Part shown: piece after piece, positions 34,292 through 39,694 of the stretch
How the letters are laid out: the number at the start of each line of letters is the position of its first letter
Position numbering within the stretch: position 1 is the stretch's first letter
Source: Curtobacterium sp. MCBA15_001
GTDB taxonomy: Bacteria > Actinomycetota > Actinomycetes > Actinomycetales > Microbacteriaceae
Direction: 5' to 3'
Length of the DNA: 64,000 nucleotides
Assembly (NCBI RefSeq): GCF_001864835.1
Contig: NZ_MJGI01000023.1
Location: forward strand, 360,912-424,911
Program-made: the position numbers and the translations under genes
The notes under the pieces: model-generated
Seen by the model: the letters and a program-made list of their open reading frames with translations, nothing else
Databases searched by the model: none
What the model was told of the DNA's origin: nothing

Positions 34292-34723
34292 TCAGCGCGT
34301 GCGGGTCATCGGGACGTGGGTGATCGCGTCCTCCTGGTAGTCCTCGCCGGAGCGCACGAAGCCGAAGCGGCCGTACCACTGCTCGAGGTGGGCCTGGGCG
34401 CCGATCACGACGACGGGAGAGCGGGTCTCGGCCAGCGCTGCCTCGATGAGCTGTGCGGCCAGACCGGTGCCGCGGGCGCGGGCGGCGGTGACGACACGGC
34501 CGATCCGCTCGGTGCCGTCGGGCTCACGCAGGAGCCGCAGCGTGGCGTCGACCGAGCCCTCGCCCGCCCAGAACTGCACGGTGCCGGGCTCGAGGTCACG
34601 GCCGTCGATGTCCCCGTACGCACACCCCTGTTCGACGACGAACACGTCCTGTCGCAGCCGCAGGATCTCGTGCAGCGTGACGACGTCGAGGTTGCGGGTG
34701 GGGGCGCTGAAGACCGAGGCCAT
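34292..34723 (-). CDS. ElaA-like GNAT N-acetyltransferase
   Basis: A 143-residue GNAT protein of the ElaA group. LHEILRLRQDVFVVEQGCAYGDIDGRDLEP is represented near the start (split here by its LRLRQDVFVVEQ and YGDIDGRD parts), and GRVVTAARARGTGLAAQLIE is the acetyl-CoA loop; YGRFGFVRSGEDY is the end block. Substrate unknown. A start at 34723 follows AGGAAAA. It diverges from the surface-protein genes. Confidence 0.85.
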   Translation of the reverse strand: MASVFSAPTRNLDVVTLHEILRLRQDVFVVEQGCAYGDIDGRDLEPGTVQFWAGEGSVDATLRLLREPDGTERIGRVVTAARARGTGLAAQLIEAALAETRSPVVVIGAQAHLEQWYGRFGFVRSGEDYQEDAITHVPMTRTR

Positions 34724-34832
34724 GCGGGGTTTTCCTGACGATTGCTTGAGAAGGGGGTTCCACGATCGCGCCGAGGGGCGTACCGTTCCGGACAACCACT
34801 CTACGTGCGCAGCCAGATCAGGAGGTGAGCGC

Positions 34833-36143
34833 ATGGACAAGCCGTTGCGCGCACCCTGGCGCGCTGCGATCCGGTACGCCCTCATGGGCACCGGGGTGAG
34901 CGCCGCCGCCGTGCTGCTCTCGCTGACCGTCGGCGCGCACACCGCGTCGGCCGCCGAGCGAGCACCCGCGCAGGGCCTGGTCGGCAGTGTCGTGCAGGGC
35001 CTCGGGTCGACCGTGCAGGGTGTCTCCGGCGGCGTCGGCGAGGTCGTCAGCGGCGTCGTCGACCCCGTGCGGACGGCTGTCCCCGCGGCTCCGGCACCCG
35101 CTGTTCCGGCACCCGCGCCTGCCGCTCCGGCTCCCGCGCCGGCAGCTCCAGCAGCCCCGGCTCCAGCCCCTGCACCTCCGGCAGCGCCGCAGACGCACGC
35201 CAAGCCGGCCCCCGCAGCACCCGCATCGGCAGCGCCAGCCCCGGCAGCGCCGGCGTCGTCGAGCCCGATGGCTCCGGCACCCGCAGCCCCCGTCCAGACC
35301 GTCACCCAGCCCACGGAACCGCGCGAGGCCTCGGCGGCGACCACCCCCGCGACGCCGGCCGGACCGACGGTCGCCACCACGGCCTCCCGTCCGCTGGGTG
35401 ACGCGCTCGTCACCGTCCTCCGGCCCGTCACCGGGACCGTCGACGGCCTGACCGGCGCCCATCCGGTCACCACCGTCGTGCACGCGCTCGACCACGTCGT
35501 CGGCGCCGTCCCGGTGGTCGGCACGGTGCTCGGTGACGACACCCTCGGCACGGTCACGCGGCCGGTCACCGGCCTGGTCGACGACACCCTCGGTGGTGTC
35601 GGGACGATCGTCGCCGACGTCCCCGACGTCGTGTCCCAGGTCGTGCCGCCCACTCTCACCCTGCCTGGAGGCCCCGCCCCCGTCCTGCCTGCCCCCGCGC
35701 CCCCGGTGGTCGGCGGCTCCGCAGCCCCGGTCGTGTCCGCGACGCCGGTCACGGCTCCGGCCGCAGCGCCGACCGCTGCCCCGGCCACGACGGAGGACCT
35801 CGCCACGACCGCGGGGGTGACTGCCTCGGCGCCGCAGCCGGGTGCAGCCCTCAGCGCGACCGTCGCAGCAGCCGACCGCTCGGGATTCCCCGCGTCCGCC
35901 ACCCTCGGCGGCGTCGCACTCGTCGTCCCCGACGGCGGCATGCCCGGTGACCAGCCCCTCGGCGGCACCGGCTCCACGACCTCCGGCGGCACCCTGAGCT
36001 CCGGCAGTGCCGGCGCCGGTGTCGTCGGCACCGTCGGCGGACTCGCCGACCAGGACCCCCTCGCCGCCGGGATGCGCGGCACCCTCGCCGACGACGTGGT
36101 CCCCGCGTCGCTCTCCGGCGAGCACGACGTCGCTCCTGACTGA
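34833..36143 (+). CDS. Secreted Ala/Pro-rich surface protein
   Basis: A 436-residue secreted protein. A signal peptide (RAAIRY, hydrophobic core, TASA near residue 40) is followed by GLVGSVVQGLGSTVQGVSGG, a long Ala/Pro spacer (about 85-155), and a region of related segments built on PVTGTVDGLTG, VVGTVLGDDTLGTVTRPVTG and LVDDTLGGVGTIVADV. There is no C-terminal anchor. I know no function. The spacer probably crosses the cell wall. The ATG at 34833 follows AGGAGGTGAGC. It lies 84 bp before the chaplin-like gene and the two probably act together at the surface. Confidence 0.72.
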   Translation: MDKPLRAPWRAAIRYALMGTGVSAAAVLLSLTVGAHTASAAERAPAQGLVGSVVQGLGSTVQGVSGGVGEVVSGVVDPVRTAVPAAPAPAVPAPAPAAPAPAPAAPAAPAPAPAPPAAPQTHAKPAPAAPASAAPAPAAPASSSPMAPAPAAPVQTVTQPTEPREASAATTPATPAGPTVATTASRPLGDALVTVLRPVTGTVDGLTGAHPVTTVVHALDHVVGAVPVVGTVLGDDTLGTVTRPVTGLVDDTLGGVGTIVADVPDVVSQVVPPTLTLPGGPAPVLPAPAPPVVGGSAAPVVSATPVTAPAAAPTAAPATTEDLATTAGVTASAPQPGAALSATVAAADRSGFPASATLGGVALVVPDGGMPGDQPLGGTGSTTSGGTLSSGSAGAGVVGTVGGLADQDPLAAGMRGTLADDVVPASLSGEHDVAPD

Positions 36144-36227
36144 GATCGGTGCACCTGCCCAGCACGGCAGGAAGCGCACCACCGACCGTGACCGCGGTCG
36201 GGACATCTCAGATCAGGAGTGATGACC

Positions 36228-38114
36228 ATGAACAAGTACGTCTCCAGAGGGCTCTGGTTCGCCCTCTTCGTCGGCGGGTTGACGTTCGGAGGATGCGCCG
36301 CGGCGAACGCTGCGACCACCACCGGCGCTGACGGTGCCGTGTCCGGGACCCAGGTGGCGCCGTCCGTCGACGCCCCCGTGTCCGTCCTCGGCAACGCCCT
36401 CGGGGTGCTCGGCGACGCGGTGTCGACGACCACGACCCCGGCTGCTGCGCCCGCTCCGGCGGCACCTGCCCCGGCAGCTCCGGCCCCCGCGCCCGCTGCT
36501 CCGGCTCCTGCTCCCTCGACCTCCGGGTCGGACGGGGTGGCCTCCGGCACGCAGGTCGTGCCCCAGGTGACCGCGCCCGTGACCGTCGGCGGCACCGCTG
36601 TCGCCGTCGGTGGTGACGCCACGTCGACCTCGACGGCCCCGGCTGCCACCACCCCGGCAGCTCCAGCTCCGGCCGCGCCTGCTGCCCCGGCTCCGGCCGC
36701 AGTCCCGACCACCTCGGGCTCGGACGGCATCGCCTCCGGCACCCAGGTCGCGGGTGCAGTCGACCTGCCCGTCGCCGTGACGGGGAACGCGGTCTCCGTG
36801 CTCGGTGACGCGACGTCGGCCGCAACCACGCCGACTGCGGCCACTCCCGCTGCTCCGGCTGCTCCGGCTGCTCCGGCATCGGATGCGCCGGCTGCCAGCA
36901 CGGACGGCTCGGACGGCATCGCTTCGGGGACGCAGGTCGTCCCCGTGGTGTCCGTCCCGGTCACGGTGACCGGCAACGGCATCGGACTGCTCGGCGACGG
37001 CGCTGCGACCGGCACCGCCGCACCGAGCACCGGGACCGTCAGCCAGCCCACCGGTGGCACCACCACCGACGGCACTGACGGCATCGCCTCGGGTTCGCAG
37101 GTCGCGCCCGTGATCTCGGTCCCGGTGACCATCGGCGGGAACGGCATCGGCCTCGTCGGTGACGGCACCGCGACCGGTCCCGTTGCGGGCTCCGGCACCG
37201 CGACGCCGAGCACCGGCACGCCGAGCGCCGGCGCCACCACCGGTCCGTCGACCGACGGATCGGACGGCGCACTCTCGGGCACCCAGGTCGTCCCGGTGGT
37301 CTCGGTTCCCGTGACCATCGGCGGGAACGGCATCGGCCTCGTCGGTGACGGCACCGCCACCGGTCCCGTTGCGGGCTCCGGCACCGTGACGCCGAGCACC
37401 GGCACGCCGAGCACCGGCGCCACCACCGGTCCGTCGACCGACGGATCGGACGGCGCACTCTCGGGCACCCAGGTCGTCCCGGTGGTCTCGCTCCCGGTGA
37501 CGATCGGCGGGAACGGCATCGGCCTCGTCGGTGACGGCACCGCCACCACGACCGGCTCGGGATCGACGGGCTCGGGCCCCGCGACCGGCACCGGAACCGG
37601 CAGCACGACCACCGGTGATGGCGGCCTGCTCTCGGGCACGCAGATCGCACCGGTGATCGGCATCCCGATCACCATCGGCGGGAACGGCATCGGCATCGTC
37701 GGGGACGGCACCAGCACCACGACGACCCCCGGCACCGGCACGGACCCGGGCACGGGCACGGACCCGGGCGACGGCACGGACCCGGGCACCGGTACGGACC
37801 CGGGCGACGGCACCGACCCCGGTGACGGCACGGACCCGGGCACCGGCACGACGCCGACCGACGGTGGCGGCACGACCGTCTCCGAGGGCGTCGGCACCAC
37901 CGGCGCCGTGACCACCGCCTCGGCGATCACCCCGACGGTCACCGCCGCCGCGGTGACCACCGTCCCGGCCGCCGCCAGCACGGTGGCGACGTCGGGGACC
38001 ACCCCGTCGACCCTGGCCTACACGGGGGCGTCCTCGCCGCTCGTGCCCGTCGGGTTCGCGCTGCTGCTGCTCCTCGCAGGCGCCGGGACGCTCGTCCTCC
38101 GTCGCCGGCACTGA
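36228..38114 (+). CDS. Chaplin-like repeat protein with LAYTG class-E sortase signal
   Basis: A 628-residue surface protein. A signal peptide (to about residue 28) is followed by eight repeats, from G33 to about residue 494. Each has a core like GSDGIASGTQV.P.V.VPVTV.GNGIGLLGDG and an Ala/Pro or Thr/Gly linker. The core follows the chaplin pattern SGN.V..P...PVNV.GN.V.V.G, but without the cysteine pair. After a GTDPGDGTDP tail come LAYTG (596-600), a hydrophobic helix and RRRH, the signal cut by class E sortases. It is probably wall-bound and may assemble into a surface film. The ATG at 36228 is eight bases after AGGAG. Confidence 0.78.
   Translation: MNKYVSRGLWFALFVGGLTFGGCAAANAATTTGADGAVSGTQVAPSVDAPVSVLGNALGVLGDAVSTTTTPAAAPAPAAPAPAAPAPAPAAPAPAPSTSGSDGVASGTQVVPQVTAPVTVGGTAVAVGGDATSTSTAPAATTPAAPAPAAPAAPAPAAVPTTSGSDGIASGTQVAGAVDLPVAVTGNAVSVLGDATSAATTPTAATPAAPAAPAAPASDAPAASTDGSDGIASGTQVVPVVSVPVTVTGNGIGLLGDGAATGTAAPSTGTVSQPTGGTTTDGTDGIASGSQVAPVISVPVTIGGNGIGLVGDGTATGPVAGSGTATPSTGTPSAGATTGPSTDGSDGALSGTQVVPVVSVPVTIGGNGIGLVGDGTATGPVAGSGTVTPSTGTPSTGATTGPSTDGSDGALSGTQVVPVVSLPVTIGGNGIGLVGDGTATTTGSGSTGSGPATGTGTGSTTTGDGGLLSGTQIAPVIGIPITIGGNGIGIVGDGTSTTTTPGTGTDPGTGTDPGDGTDPGTGTDPGDGTDPGDGTDPGTGTTPTDGGGTTVSEGVGTTGAVTTASAITPTVTAAAVTTVPAAASTVATSGTTPSTLAYTGASSPLVPVGFALLLLLAGAGTLVLRRRH
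36324..37709 (+). repeat. Eight in-frame chaplin-like repeats; last ones at 186-bp period
   Basis: Repeat units 5, 6 and 7 are nearly identical over about 62 codons (unit 6 starts at 37257, unit 7 at 37443), while units 1-4 have diverged and carry Ala/Pro linkers. This suggests recent duplication at the C-terminal side. An 18-bp repeat encoding GTDPGD follows at about 37735-37855. Confidence 0.8.
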
Positions 38115-38120
38115 CCGATC

Positions 38121-38161
38121 GACTCCGAGGGGCACCGGTTGCGCCGGTGCCCCTCGGAGTC
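38121..38161 (+). terminator. 18-bp perfect hairpin after the chaplin-like gene
   Basis: GACTCCGAGGGGCACCGG, a five-base loop and the exact complement, seven bases past the stop codon. It is the clearest terminator in the window, though no T-run follows. Confidence 0.75.
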
Positions 38162-38181
38162 ATGCCCGGTCGAGGATGCAA

Positions 38182-38234
38182 CCGCCTGGAGGCCCGGAGC
38201 CGATCCGGCGGACCGGCACCGGGCCTCCAGGCGG
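38182..38234. repeat. 16-bp-arm GGAGGCCCGG-family inverted repeat
   Basis: CCGCCTGGAGGCCCGG (38182-38197) and its exact complement (38219-38234) with a 21-base loop. The arms match those at 13824-13880. It lies just after the terminator at 38121. The rest of the gap to 38366 shows nothing I can name. Confidence 0.65.
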
Positions 38235-38365
38235 GTCGCCCTGACGGCACCGGCCGTTCCCTGTGAGTCAGCCGGTCGCTGTCTGGGTGTGGTTCATGTC
38301 GATGCTGTGAACAGCGGAAGCGCGTCGGCAGCCCCTCGGCAGCCGCTCGGCAGGACGATGAACAC

Positions 38366-39694
38366 GTGTTCAACGAACTGCTCCGCATGCCGATCGTCAC
38401 TCCTGACGTGCTCGTCCCCGTCGACGTCCTGGCCGCGGTGCTGGCGCTGCTCACGCTCTTCGGTCGTCGGCGGGGGCTGCTCGTGCGGCTCGTCGCGCTC
38501 GTCGTCGGCGCAGGGCTCGGCCTGCTGGCGGTGTGGTGGTTCGGCGACGTCCGCGACGAGTTCGGCGTCGCGTTCACGCCCGTCACGCGGATGTGGATCG
38601 CGCTGGCTGCCGGCGCGATCGTCATGGGGCTCGTGGTCCTGGTGCAGCGCGGTCTCGGCGGGCGGGCCTGGGGACGCCGCGGCGTGGCGGTGGCGGCGAT
38701 GCTGGCCGTGACCCTCGCCGCGGGACTCGGCGTCAACGTCGACTTCGGCGCCTACCGCACCATCGACCAGGCGATCACCACGAACCCCTACCCGAACGGA
38801 TCACTCGGCCACGAGCACGCGGCGGCCGCCGGAGCGACGGTGGTCGACGCAGCGACCTGGACGGCACCGGCGGGCATGCCGCGCACCGGCAAGGCGATGT
38901 CCTTCCGCATCCCGGGGAAGGTGTCGCACTTCCGAGCCCGCAAGGCCGTCGTGTGGCTGCCGCCGGCCGCCCTCACCGCCGACCCGCCGACGCTCCCGGT
39001 GCTGGTGACGTTCTCCGGACAACCCGGCCAGCCGTCCGACATGTTCCAGGCGGGCGGCATGGGGCGCTACCTTGACGCCTATGCAGCTGCGCACCGGGGC
39101 CTGGCACCCATCGTCGTCGCACCCGACCAGCTCGGTGCGCCCAACCGCAACCCGATGTGCCTGGACTCTCGGCAGCTCGGACGCAGCGCGACCTACGTCA
39201 TGACCGACACCGTGAACTGGATCAAGGACCACCTGAACGTCGGGACCGGCCCCTCGGCCTGGGGCGTCGACGGCTTCTCCGAGGGCGCGACCTGCGCGAT
39301 GCAGTTCTCCGCGGAACACCCCGACGTGTTCGGGTCCACCCTCGCCGTCTCGAGTGAGCTCGCCCCCTTCACCGGGTCGGCCCAGCACTCGGCGCAGGTG
39401 GCCTTCCACGGCTCGATGGCGAAGTACGCGGCAGCCGCACCGATCGCCGTCATGCACCGCAACGCCCCCTACCGCGACCACCTCACGGTCTTCGGGTTCG
39501 GCCAGGACGACGCGCCCTACCGCGCCACGACCGCGAAGCTCCGCGCCGCGGCGGAGCAGGCCGGCATGCAGACCCAGGTGATCGTCTCCCCGGGCTCGGC
39601 CCACGACTGGAACACCGTGCGGTACGTGCTCGCACACGGTCTCCCGCCGGTGATCGCGCACCTCGGCCTGCCAGCGCAGGACGGCGCGCTGTGA
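38366..39694 (+). CDS. Membrane-anchored esterase (esterase D/PF00756-like)
   Basis: A 442-residue protein: three to four N-terminal membrane segments (to about residue 125), then an alpha/beta-hydrolase domain outside the membrane. AVVWLPPAAL and LVTFSGQPG begin the fold; the nucleophile elbow is GVDGFSEGATCAMQF; the late histidine is in PGSAHDWNTV. It resembles the mycolyltransferase/esterase D family. It overlaps the next gene (GTGA), an aminoacyl-phosphatidylglycerol synthase-like protein. It may remove the amino acid from the modified lipid, as esterases paired with such synthases do in some bacteria. The GTG at 38366 lacks a strong ribosome site. Confidence 0.78.
   Translation: MFNELLRMPIVTPDVLVPVDVLAAVLALLTLFGRRRGLLVRLVALVVGAGLGLLAVWWFGDVRDEFGVAFTPVTRMWIALAAGAIVMGLVVLVQRGLGGRAWGRRGVAVAAMLAVTLAAGLGVNVDFGAYRTIDQAITTNPYPNGSLGHEHAAAAGATVVDAATWTAPAGMPRTGKAMSFRIPGKVSHFRARKAVVWLPPAALTADPPTLPVLVTFSGQPGQPSDMFQAGGMGRYLDAYAAAHRGLAPIVVAPDQLGAPNRNPMCLDSRQLGRSATYVMTDTVNWIKDHLNVGTGPSAWGVDGFSEGATCAMQFSAEHPDVFGSTLAVSSELAPFTGSAQHSAQVAFHGSMAKYAAAAPIAVMHRNAPYRDHLTVFGFGQDDAPYRATTAKLRAAAEQAGMQTQVIVSPGSAHDWNTVRYVLAHGLPPVIAHLGLPAQDGAL

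Follow-up and report, generated by a model that had tools for sequence, protein, structure and literature searches.

Chaplins form the coat with which Streptomyces hyphae break through the water surface, and Curtobacterium is a genus of non-sporulating rods. From a stretch of 64,000 nucleotides of Curtobacterium sp. MCBA15_001 (contig NZ_MJGI01000023.1; 'the window' is the whole of this stretch) we describe a gene for a putative wall protein with eight chaplin-like cores and, just upstream, a partner gene that appears to accompany it through the family. The wall protein resembles the long chaplins ChpA-C of Streptomyces, which are likewise secreted, carry PF03777 domains and present LAxTG to a class E sortase. 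LAXTG is the signal of this sortase class, and in Streptomyces coelicolor SrtE1 and SrtE2 anchor the long chaplins (PMC5148588). Unlike ChpA-C, which have two domains and belong to hosts with an aerial mycelium, the wall protein has eight cores (four to ten in complete relatives), is without the cysteines and the C-terminal GN third of the domain, and is made by a rod in whose genome, with its one PF03777 locus, no short chaplin was found (a very diverged one could escape). When ChpABC were restored to a ChpE-only strain of S. coelicolor aerial growth did not improve, and cysteine was not required for chaplin fibrils in vitro (PMC3079736); a long-only system would thus be unlike the Streptomyces coat, and cysteine-free cores could therefore assemble. 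ChpE itself, like the cores, is a chaplin domain without cysteine and forms fibrils in vitro (PMC3079736), but it is a single short secreted domain that, unlike the wall protein, is not wall-anchored. Chandra and Chater drew attention to chaplin-like proteins in the non-sporulating Arthrobacter chlorophenolicus and suggested attachment as a possible earlier function (PMC4255298); like the wall protein these are chaplin-like sequences outside the sporulating actinomycetes, and the part of that account concerned with them describes neither an architecture nor a Microbacteriaceae family nor a partner gene. CwpA and CwpB of Actinoplanes missouriensis are hydrophobic wall proteins that depend on a class E sortase and are predicted to be disordered with small beta clusters, but unlike the wall protein they have, according to their authors, no chaplin domain (PMC13251363). 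Among the matches listed from the open-licence literature on chaplins and class E sortases, Microbacteriaceae included, there was no description of the wall protein family or of its partner.

The wall protein gene is laid out as follows.

36228..38114, forward strand: wall protein gene, 628 amino acids, eight chaplin-like cores and LAYTG sorting signal
36228..36311, forward strand: signal peptide MNKYVSRGLWFALFVGGLTFGGCAAANA, read from the sequence, conserved in alignment A2
36324..36419, forward strand: core 1, PF03777 18.1 bits, E 0.0025
36525..36620, forward strand: core 2, PF03777 19.1 bits, E 0.0012
36717..36812, forward strand: core 3, PF03777 28.8 bits, E 1.1e-6, sole core over the cut-off alone
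36906..37001, forward strand: core 4, PF03777 15.9 bits, E 0.012
37071..37166, forward strand: core 5, PF03777 12.8 bits, E 0.11, within the near-identical array of 186 base pairs (bp) at 37098-37547
37257..37352, forward strand: core 6, PF03777 17.4 bits, E 0.004
37443..37538, forward strand: core 7, PF03777 16.6 bits, E 0.007
37614..37709, forward strand: core 8, PF03777 18.6 bits, E 0.0017
37727..37850, forward strand: TDPG/TG tandem repeat stalk
38013..38111, forward strand: class E type sorting signal, made of LAYTG (38013-38027), membrane helix and RRRH tail

The ATG at 36228 fits better as the start than 36222, because AGGAG (36215-36219) lies 8 nucleotides before the former and 2 before the latter, and MNK, the N-terminus of many relatives, agrees with it. 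Each core is 32 residues long, joined by linkers that are alanine- and proline-rich between the first four cores and threonine- and glycine-rich further on, and the stalk is probably a wall-spanning spacer. The single cysteine sits in the signal peptide, leaving none in the mature protein; as it is not conserved in alignment A2, a lipoprotein reading was rejected. The 186-bp tandem repeat (2.4 copies, 95% matches) points to recent duplication of cores, so that their number may vary between strains.

An earlier, sequence-only reading had seen in this product eight cores of chaplin pattern without chaplin cysteines, followed by LAYTG and a membrane helix, and these observations are confirmed. 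All eight cores were located, and PF03777 (ChpA-C) is the best family for every one scanned singly (12.8-28.8 bits); the whole protein scores 59.7 bits (E 2.5e-16) against a cut-off of 21, with eight PF03777 stretches at E<=10 and one at E<=0.001, and a search of the whole genome passes one core at 27.9 bits. The partner, of similarly biased composition, has no Pfam match at E<=10. Profiles of 151 distinct cores from relatives within the genus and 208 from others, all selected by sequence pattern, were compared by HHalign with 41 distinct chaplin domains from one large-genome, Streptomyces-like genus, giving a score of 31.5 (probability 92.4%) for the genus cores and 41.9 (96.5%) for the rest, against maxima of 21.2 and 18.0 over 200 column shuffles and scores of 13.0 and 13.8 for reversed profiles. 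The alignment spans 30-32 columns, approximately the first two thirds of the chaplin domain (SGNxVQxPVxxPVNVxGNxVxVxG). Within the genus all 158 cores have the proline of the PV step and 151 have the central asparagine; across three consecutive cores in 69 sequences the P, GN and GD positions are near-invariant, and relatives outside Curtobacterium retain a chaplin-like GGNQV and GNxxSVxGD. The core profile finds eight matches among those listed for the genome, as many as the wall protein has cores. A chaplin domain has three GN turns 12-13 residues apart (PMC13251363), whereas the first turn of the genus cores is GT or GS, with asparagine in none of the 158, and the profile alignment stops before the third. 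Two conserved cysteines per domain are likewise expected, ChpE and the C-terminal domain of ChpB being exempt, and none of the 158 cores contains any. Because the C-terminal third, the cysteines and short chaplins are missing, 'chaplin' is too strong a word, and, strictly speaking, the sequence of the wall protein does not qualify it as a chaplin. The earlier interpretation as a chaplin-type protein is therefore partly supported: the family match over the cut-off and the weak but consistent single cores stand, the full identity does not.

The sorting signal scores 30.4 bits with NF058582, the NCBIfam LAVTG sorting-domain model (cut-off 27). Three sortases are encoded in the genome: one clear class E enzyme (L002; NF033747, 224 bits, cut-off 160), one of class F (L003; 177 bits, cut-off 166) and a weaker class F relative under the cut-off (L004; 102.5 bits). 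Neither of the findings that the sequence-only reading had named as telling against it, no chaplin hit in profile searches and no class E sortase in the genome, was thus obtained. With its LAxTG, membrane helix and basic tail, in a genome with a class E sortase, the wall protein is a predicted class E substrate. A sequence pattern counts four or more cores in 69 named relatives, of which 60 carry a sorting motif at the C-terminus, LAxTG in every case, and these complete relatives have 4-10 cores; of the other nine, five lie near contig ends, three have masked bases and one (L152) is unexplained, and the window's own locus, cut short in this count (L171), is also without the motif. One relative (L029) has LPATG instead of LAxTG, and 64 of 66 Curtobacterium genomes have a class E sortase over the cut-off. 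A second protein with a sorting-like signal (L004:419-1926; NF041528, 18.9 bits, under the cut-off of 30) lies directly before the weaker class F relative.

The partner gene has these parts.

34833..36143, forward strand: partner gene, exported Ala/Pro/Val-rich protein of 436 amino acids by translation, adjoining the wall gene in the named loci
34833..34955, forward strand: signal peptide (MDKPLRAP...TASAA), read by eye, N-termini of relatives similar
35373..35627, forward strand: Val-rich block (PVVGTVLGDD..VTRPVTGLVDDTLGGVG), alignment A4
36090..36140, forward strand: extreme C-terminal tail DDVVPASLSGEHDVAPD, directly before the stop, strict tail pattern

A secreted Ala/Pro-rich neighbour of unknown function had already been noticed here; no Pfam or NCBIfam family matches the partner over the cut-off, nor does any in Pfam match six diverse relatives, and a rodlin identity was considered and dropped, no known family model matching over the cut-off. 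It is not, however, a mere neighbour; by its recurrence in 80 named loci and 28 genera it is a conserved syntenic companion of the wall gene, spread through the family and newly recognised here. The thread is its tail, with a consensus close to DDxLPxSPVxDTDxSPD-stop (...LPxSxxxDxDxSPD). An open reading frame (ORF) with such a tail lies just upstream on the same strand in all 80 loci, 76 found by script and four by eye (L110, in a shifted frame; L123; and L141 and L143, identical to each other). Of the 80 adjacent ORFs, 69 fit the strict pattern and 76 a looser one, D.[ASTV]P[DG]-stop, against 3 and 6 of 4706 ORFs elsewhere, the pattern having been devised after these loci were viewed and first tested on them. 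A second sample took one genome each from 28 of 31 genera, at least four of these genomes being also in the named set; it left out the window's own genus, G117 (no coordinates) and G211 (L203, where the sequence ends before the partner's place). An upstream ORF of at least 120 residues ending in P[DG] was present in 27 of the 28, with the strict pattern fulfilled in 13, and in the 28th (L192) the tail ...LPTSLSLEPGSSPD was read by eye in a frame of 107 residues. At three loci that belong to a different family in the order (L200, L201 and L202) the ORF upstream closes with RPD, and in the Curtobacterium genome itself the tail's DNA pattern occurs once, at the partner. Outside the tail, conservation of the partner is low (mean column identity 25%), so that the tail appears to be under a constraint of its own. 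The ratio of nonsynonymous to synonymous substitution rates (dN/dS) in six Curtobacterium pairs is 0.23-0.43 for the Val-rich block and 0.52-0.93 for the linker that follows. A membrane helix and basic residues sit right before the tail in some relatives but not in others, Curtobacterium being among the latter. The gap between partner and wall gene is 84 bp, and a scan of 34650-38420 gave no terminator-like site between them. An upstream DNA motif was not used: its ten-mers occur in about 33 of 79 stretches and are absent from most of the listed stretches from outside Curtobacterium. A search of the phylum with the partner profile, scoring few candidates per genome, matched 8 of 396 genomes, none Streptomyces-like, and missed G374, where the partner ends in RPD; weak matches in G1018, G1113 and G1063 were judged to be chance. 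In G362 (L214), from another family of the order, a secreted Pro/Val-rich protein has the tail ...SSPAVDPGSSPD / ...LPSSPAVDPGSSPD and no wall gene alongside, so proteins with this tail may extend beyond the two-gene module.

One Microbacteriaceae genome, G276, suggests what the partner may serve. At L213 (about 1.3-3.0 kb, reverse complement) a partner with a helix and the ending ...ATDVSPD precedes a wall protein that shares the signal peptide type and has a TDP stalk and LATTG anchor, but a long D/V-rich repeat takes the place of the cores; PF03777 finds no match in G276. Since the partner was kept while the cores were replaced, this single case suggests that it serves the scaffold rather than the cores.

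The wall protein is widespread. A 68-residue query is 99% identical to sequences of Curtobacterium sp. Leaf183 and VKM Ac-2922, and the signal peptide with the core profile was found in 65 of 66 Curtobacterium genomes (the one missed, G022, is in 790 contigs; the match in G049 is weak, 7.7e-10) and in 92 of 299 genomes and 31 of 85 genera of Microbacteriaceae at E<=1e-8, profiles A1 and A2 having been built partly from searched genomes that match by construction. PF03777 alone finds 36 of the 66 Curtobacterium genomes, an undercount because single cores sit near its cut-off, and 66 of the 299 in the family. Beyond it, PF03777 occurs in 36 of 396 genomes and 14 of 110 genera of the order, other families included, and in 15 of 396 genomes of the phylum, four with the short core type and eleven in one large-genome genus, taken to be Streptomyces, with full-length 57-position domains. 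We read these as two branches, one of full domains with cysteine and one of truncated multi-core proteins in the Micrococcales. Two full matches at distant sites in each of G040, G045 and G345 indicate two wall-gene paralogues, and a plasmid search gave one match at 4% coverage, which was ignored. Several named isolates with the wall protein come from leaves or roots.

We give a probability of about 0.6 to the reading that the two genes form a cell-surface module whose wall protein is a sortase-E-anchored, chaplin-like coat or adhesin. After export, SrtE would join the wall protein to peptidoglycan, from which the cores would project like beads on a string; short and beta-branched, the cores could associate edge-to-edge in one molecule or across several, perhaps also from cell to cell or with hydrophobic surfaces. 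The result would be a chaplin-like coat or adhesin, covalently fixed to the wall, that needs neither free short chaplins nor disulphides. Possibly sharing a transcript with the wall gene, the partner might aid export, anchoring or assembly. Selection holds the cores more tightly than the linkers: dN/dS is 0.17-0.30 in cores and 0.28-0.44 in the linkers, whose values are alignment-sensitive, and is higher in the linker in six of six Curtobacterium pairs (L091 omitted for masked bases). An AlphaFold model of a three-core stretch, from 69 alignment rows, repeats the same short-strand pattern in each core at low confidence, with linkers partly below 50 in predicted local distance difference test (pLDDT), so that beads on a string is at best what the model depicts. 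Several points weigh on the other side. Seven of the eight cores fall under the PF03777 cut-off when scanned alone, and the C-terminal third of the chaplin domain (LNPAxGNxC, with the last GN and the second cysteine) is absent; the model is of low quality (mean pLDDT 56.7, predicted template modelling score 0.42, no residue at 70 or above), and structure searches returned no solved relative. To these are added the sensitivity of the linker dN/dS, linkers that look polar by eye and take up over half the mature chain, a scan of 34650-38420 that gave no promoter-like site either, and a partner whose putative role is argued from synteny.

The same gene could instead encode a ligand-binding adhesin, its cores being stable small beta domains that do not polymerise but, on a flexible stalk, bind a specific target such as plant cuticle, cellulose or another cell, with core number tuning reach and avidity. 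Signal peptide, repeats, stalk and sortase signal are the architecture of Gram-positive adhesins, and the range of 4-10 cores in the 60 complete relatives, the recent expansion marked by the 186-bp duplication and the different repeats on the same scaffold in G276 would all suit it; we nevertheless think it rather unlikely, as the cores are related to self-assembling chaplins, are short for a globular binding domain and gave no confidently folded domain in the AlphaFold model. That the protein is a passive spacer, low-complexity repeats masking the surface or texturing the wall with an inherited and no longer functional likeness to chaplins, would accord with the bulk of the linkers and the loss of cysteines and third GN turn, but purifying selection that is tighter on cores than on linkers, and the near-invariant P, GN and GD positions, make it improbable. 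Convergence, by which V/T/G/S-rich beta repeats merely resemble a chaplin to a short hidden Markov model, draws on the weak scores of single cores (12.8-28.8 bits here, 21-36 bits for passing cores in other genomes) and on the usually unmatched end of the 57-position PF03777 model; it appears very improbable against an ordered match of 30-32 columns well above shuffled and reversed profiles, the GGNQV and GNxxSVxGD kept outside the genus, and the LAxTG/class E anchoring in common with chaplins.

Behind the chaplin-like coat or adhesin there is possibly, and we put this tentatively, a more general two-component display in the Micrococcales, in which the gene of a PD-tailed exported helper immediately precedes that of a scaffold for class E sortase with a replaceable repeat cassette, mostly truncated chaplin cores and in at least one genome an unrelated repeat. 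The helper's tail would recognise the scaffold or the anchoring machinery, and the chaplin core would be an adhesive or coat element of ancient origin, either older than the aerial growth of Streptomyces or taken over by it. The distribution hints at an older use of the chaplin domain on ordinary cell surfaces, and a family-wide, wall-anchored, cysteine-free multi-core protein in rods would allow the suggestion that attachment preceded aerial growth (PMC4255298) to be tested. A conserved partner with such a C-terminal tail may also mark a step of surface display by class E sortases that has so far gone unrecognised.

Downstream of the wall gene, a gene at 38366-39694 of the window has no match in the loci of other named genera, follows the wall gene in many Curtobacterium loci and in two Microbacteriaceae loci, and encodes what we take to be an esterase/alpha-beta-hydrolase-like protein.

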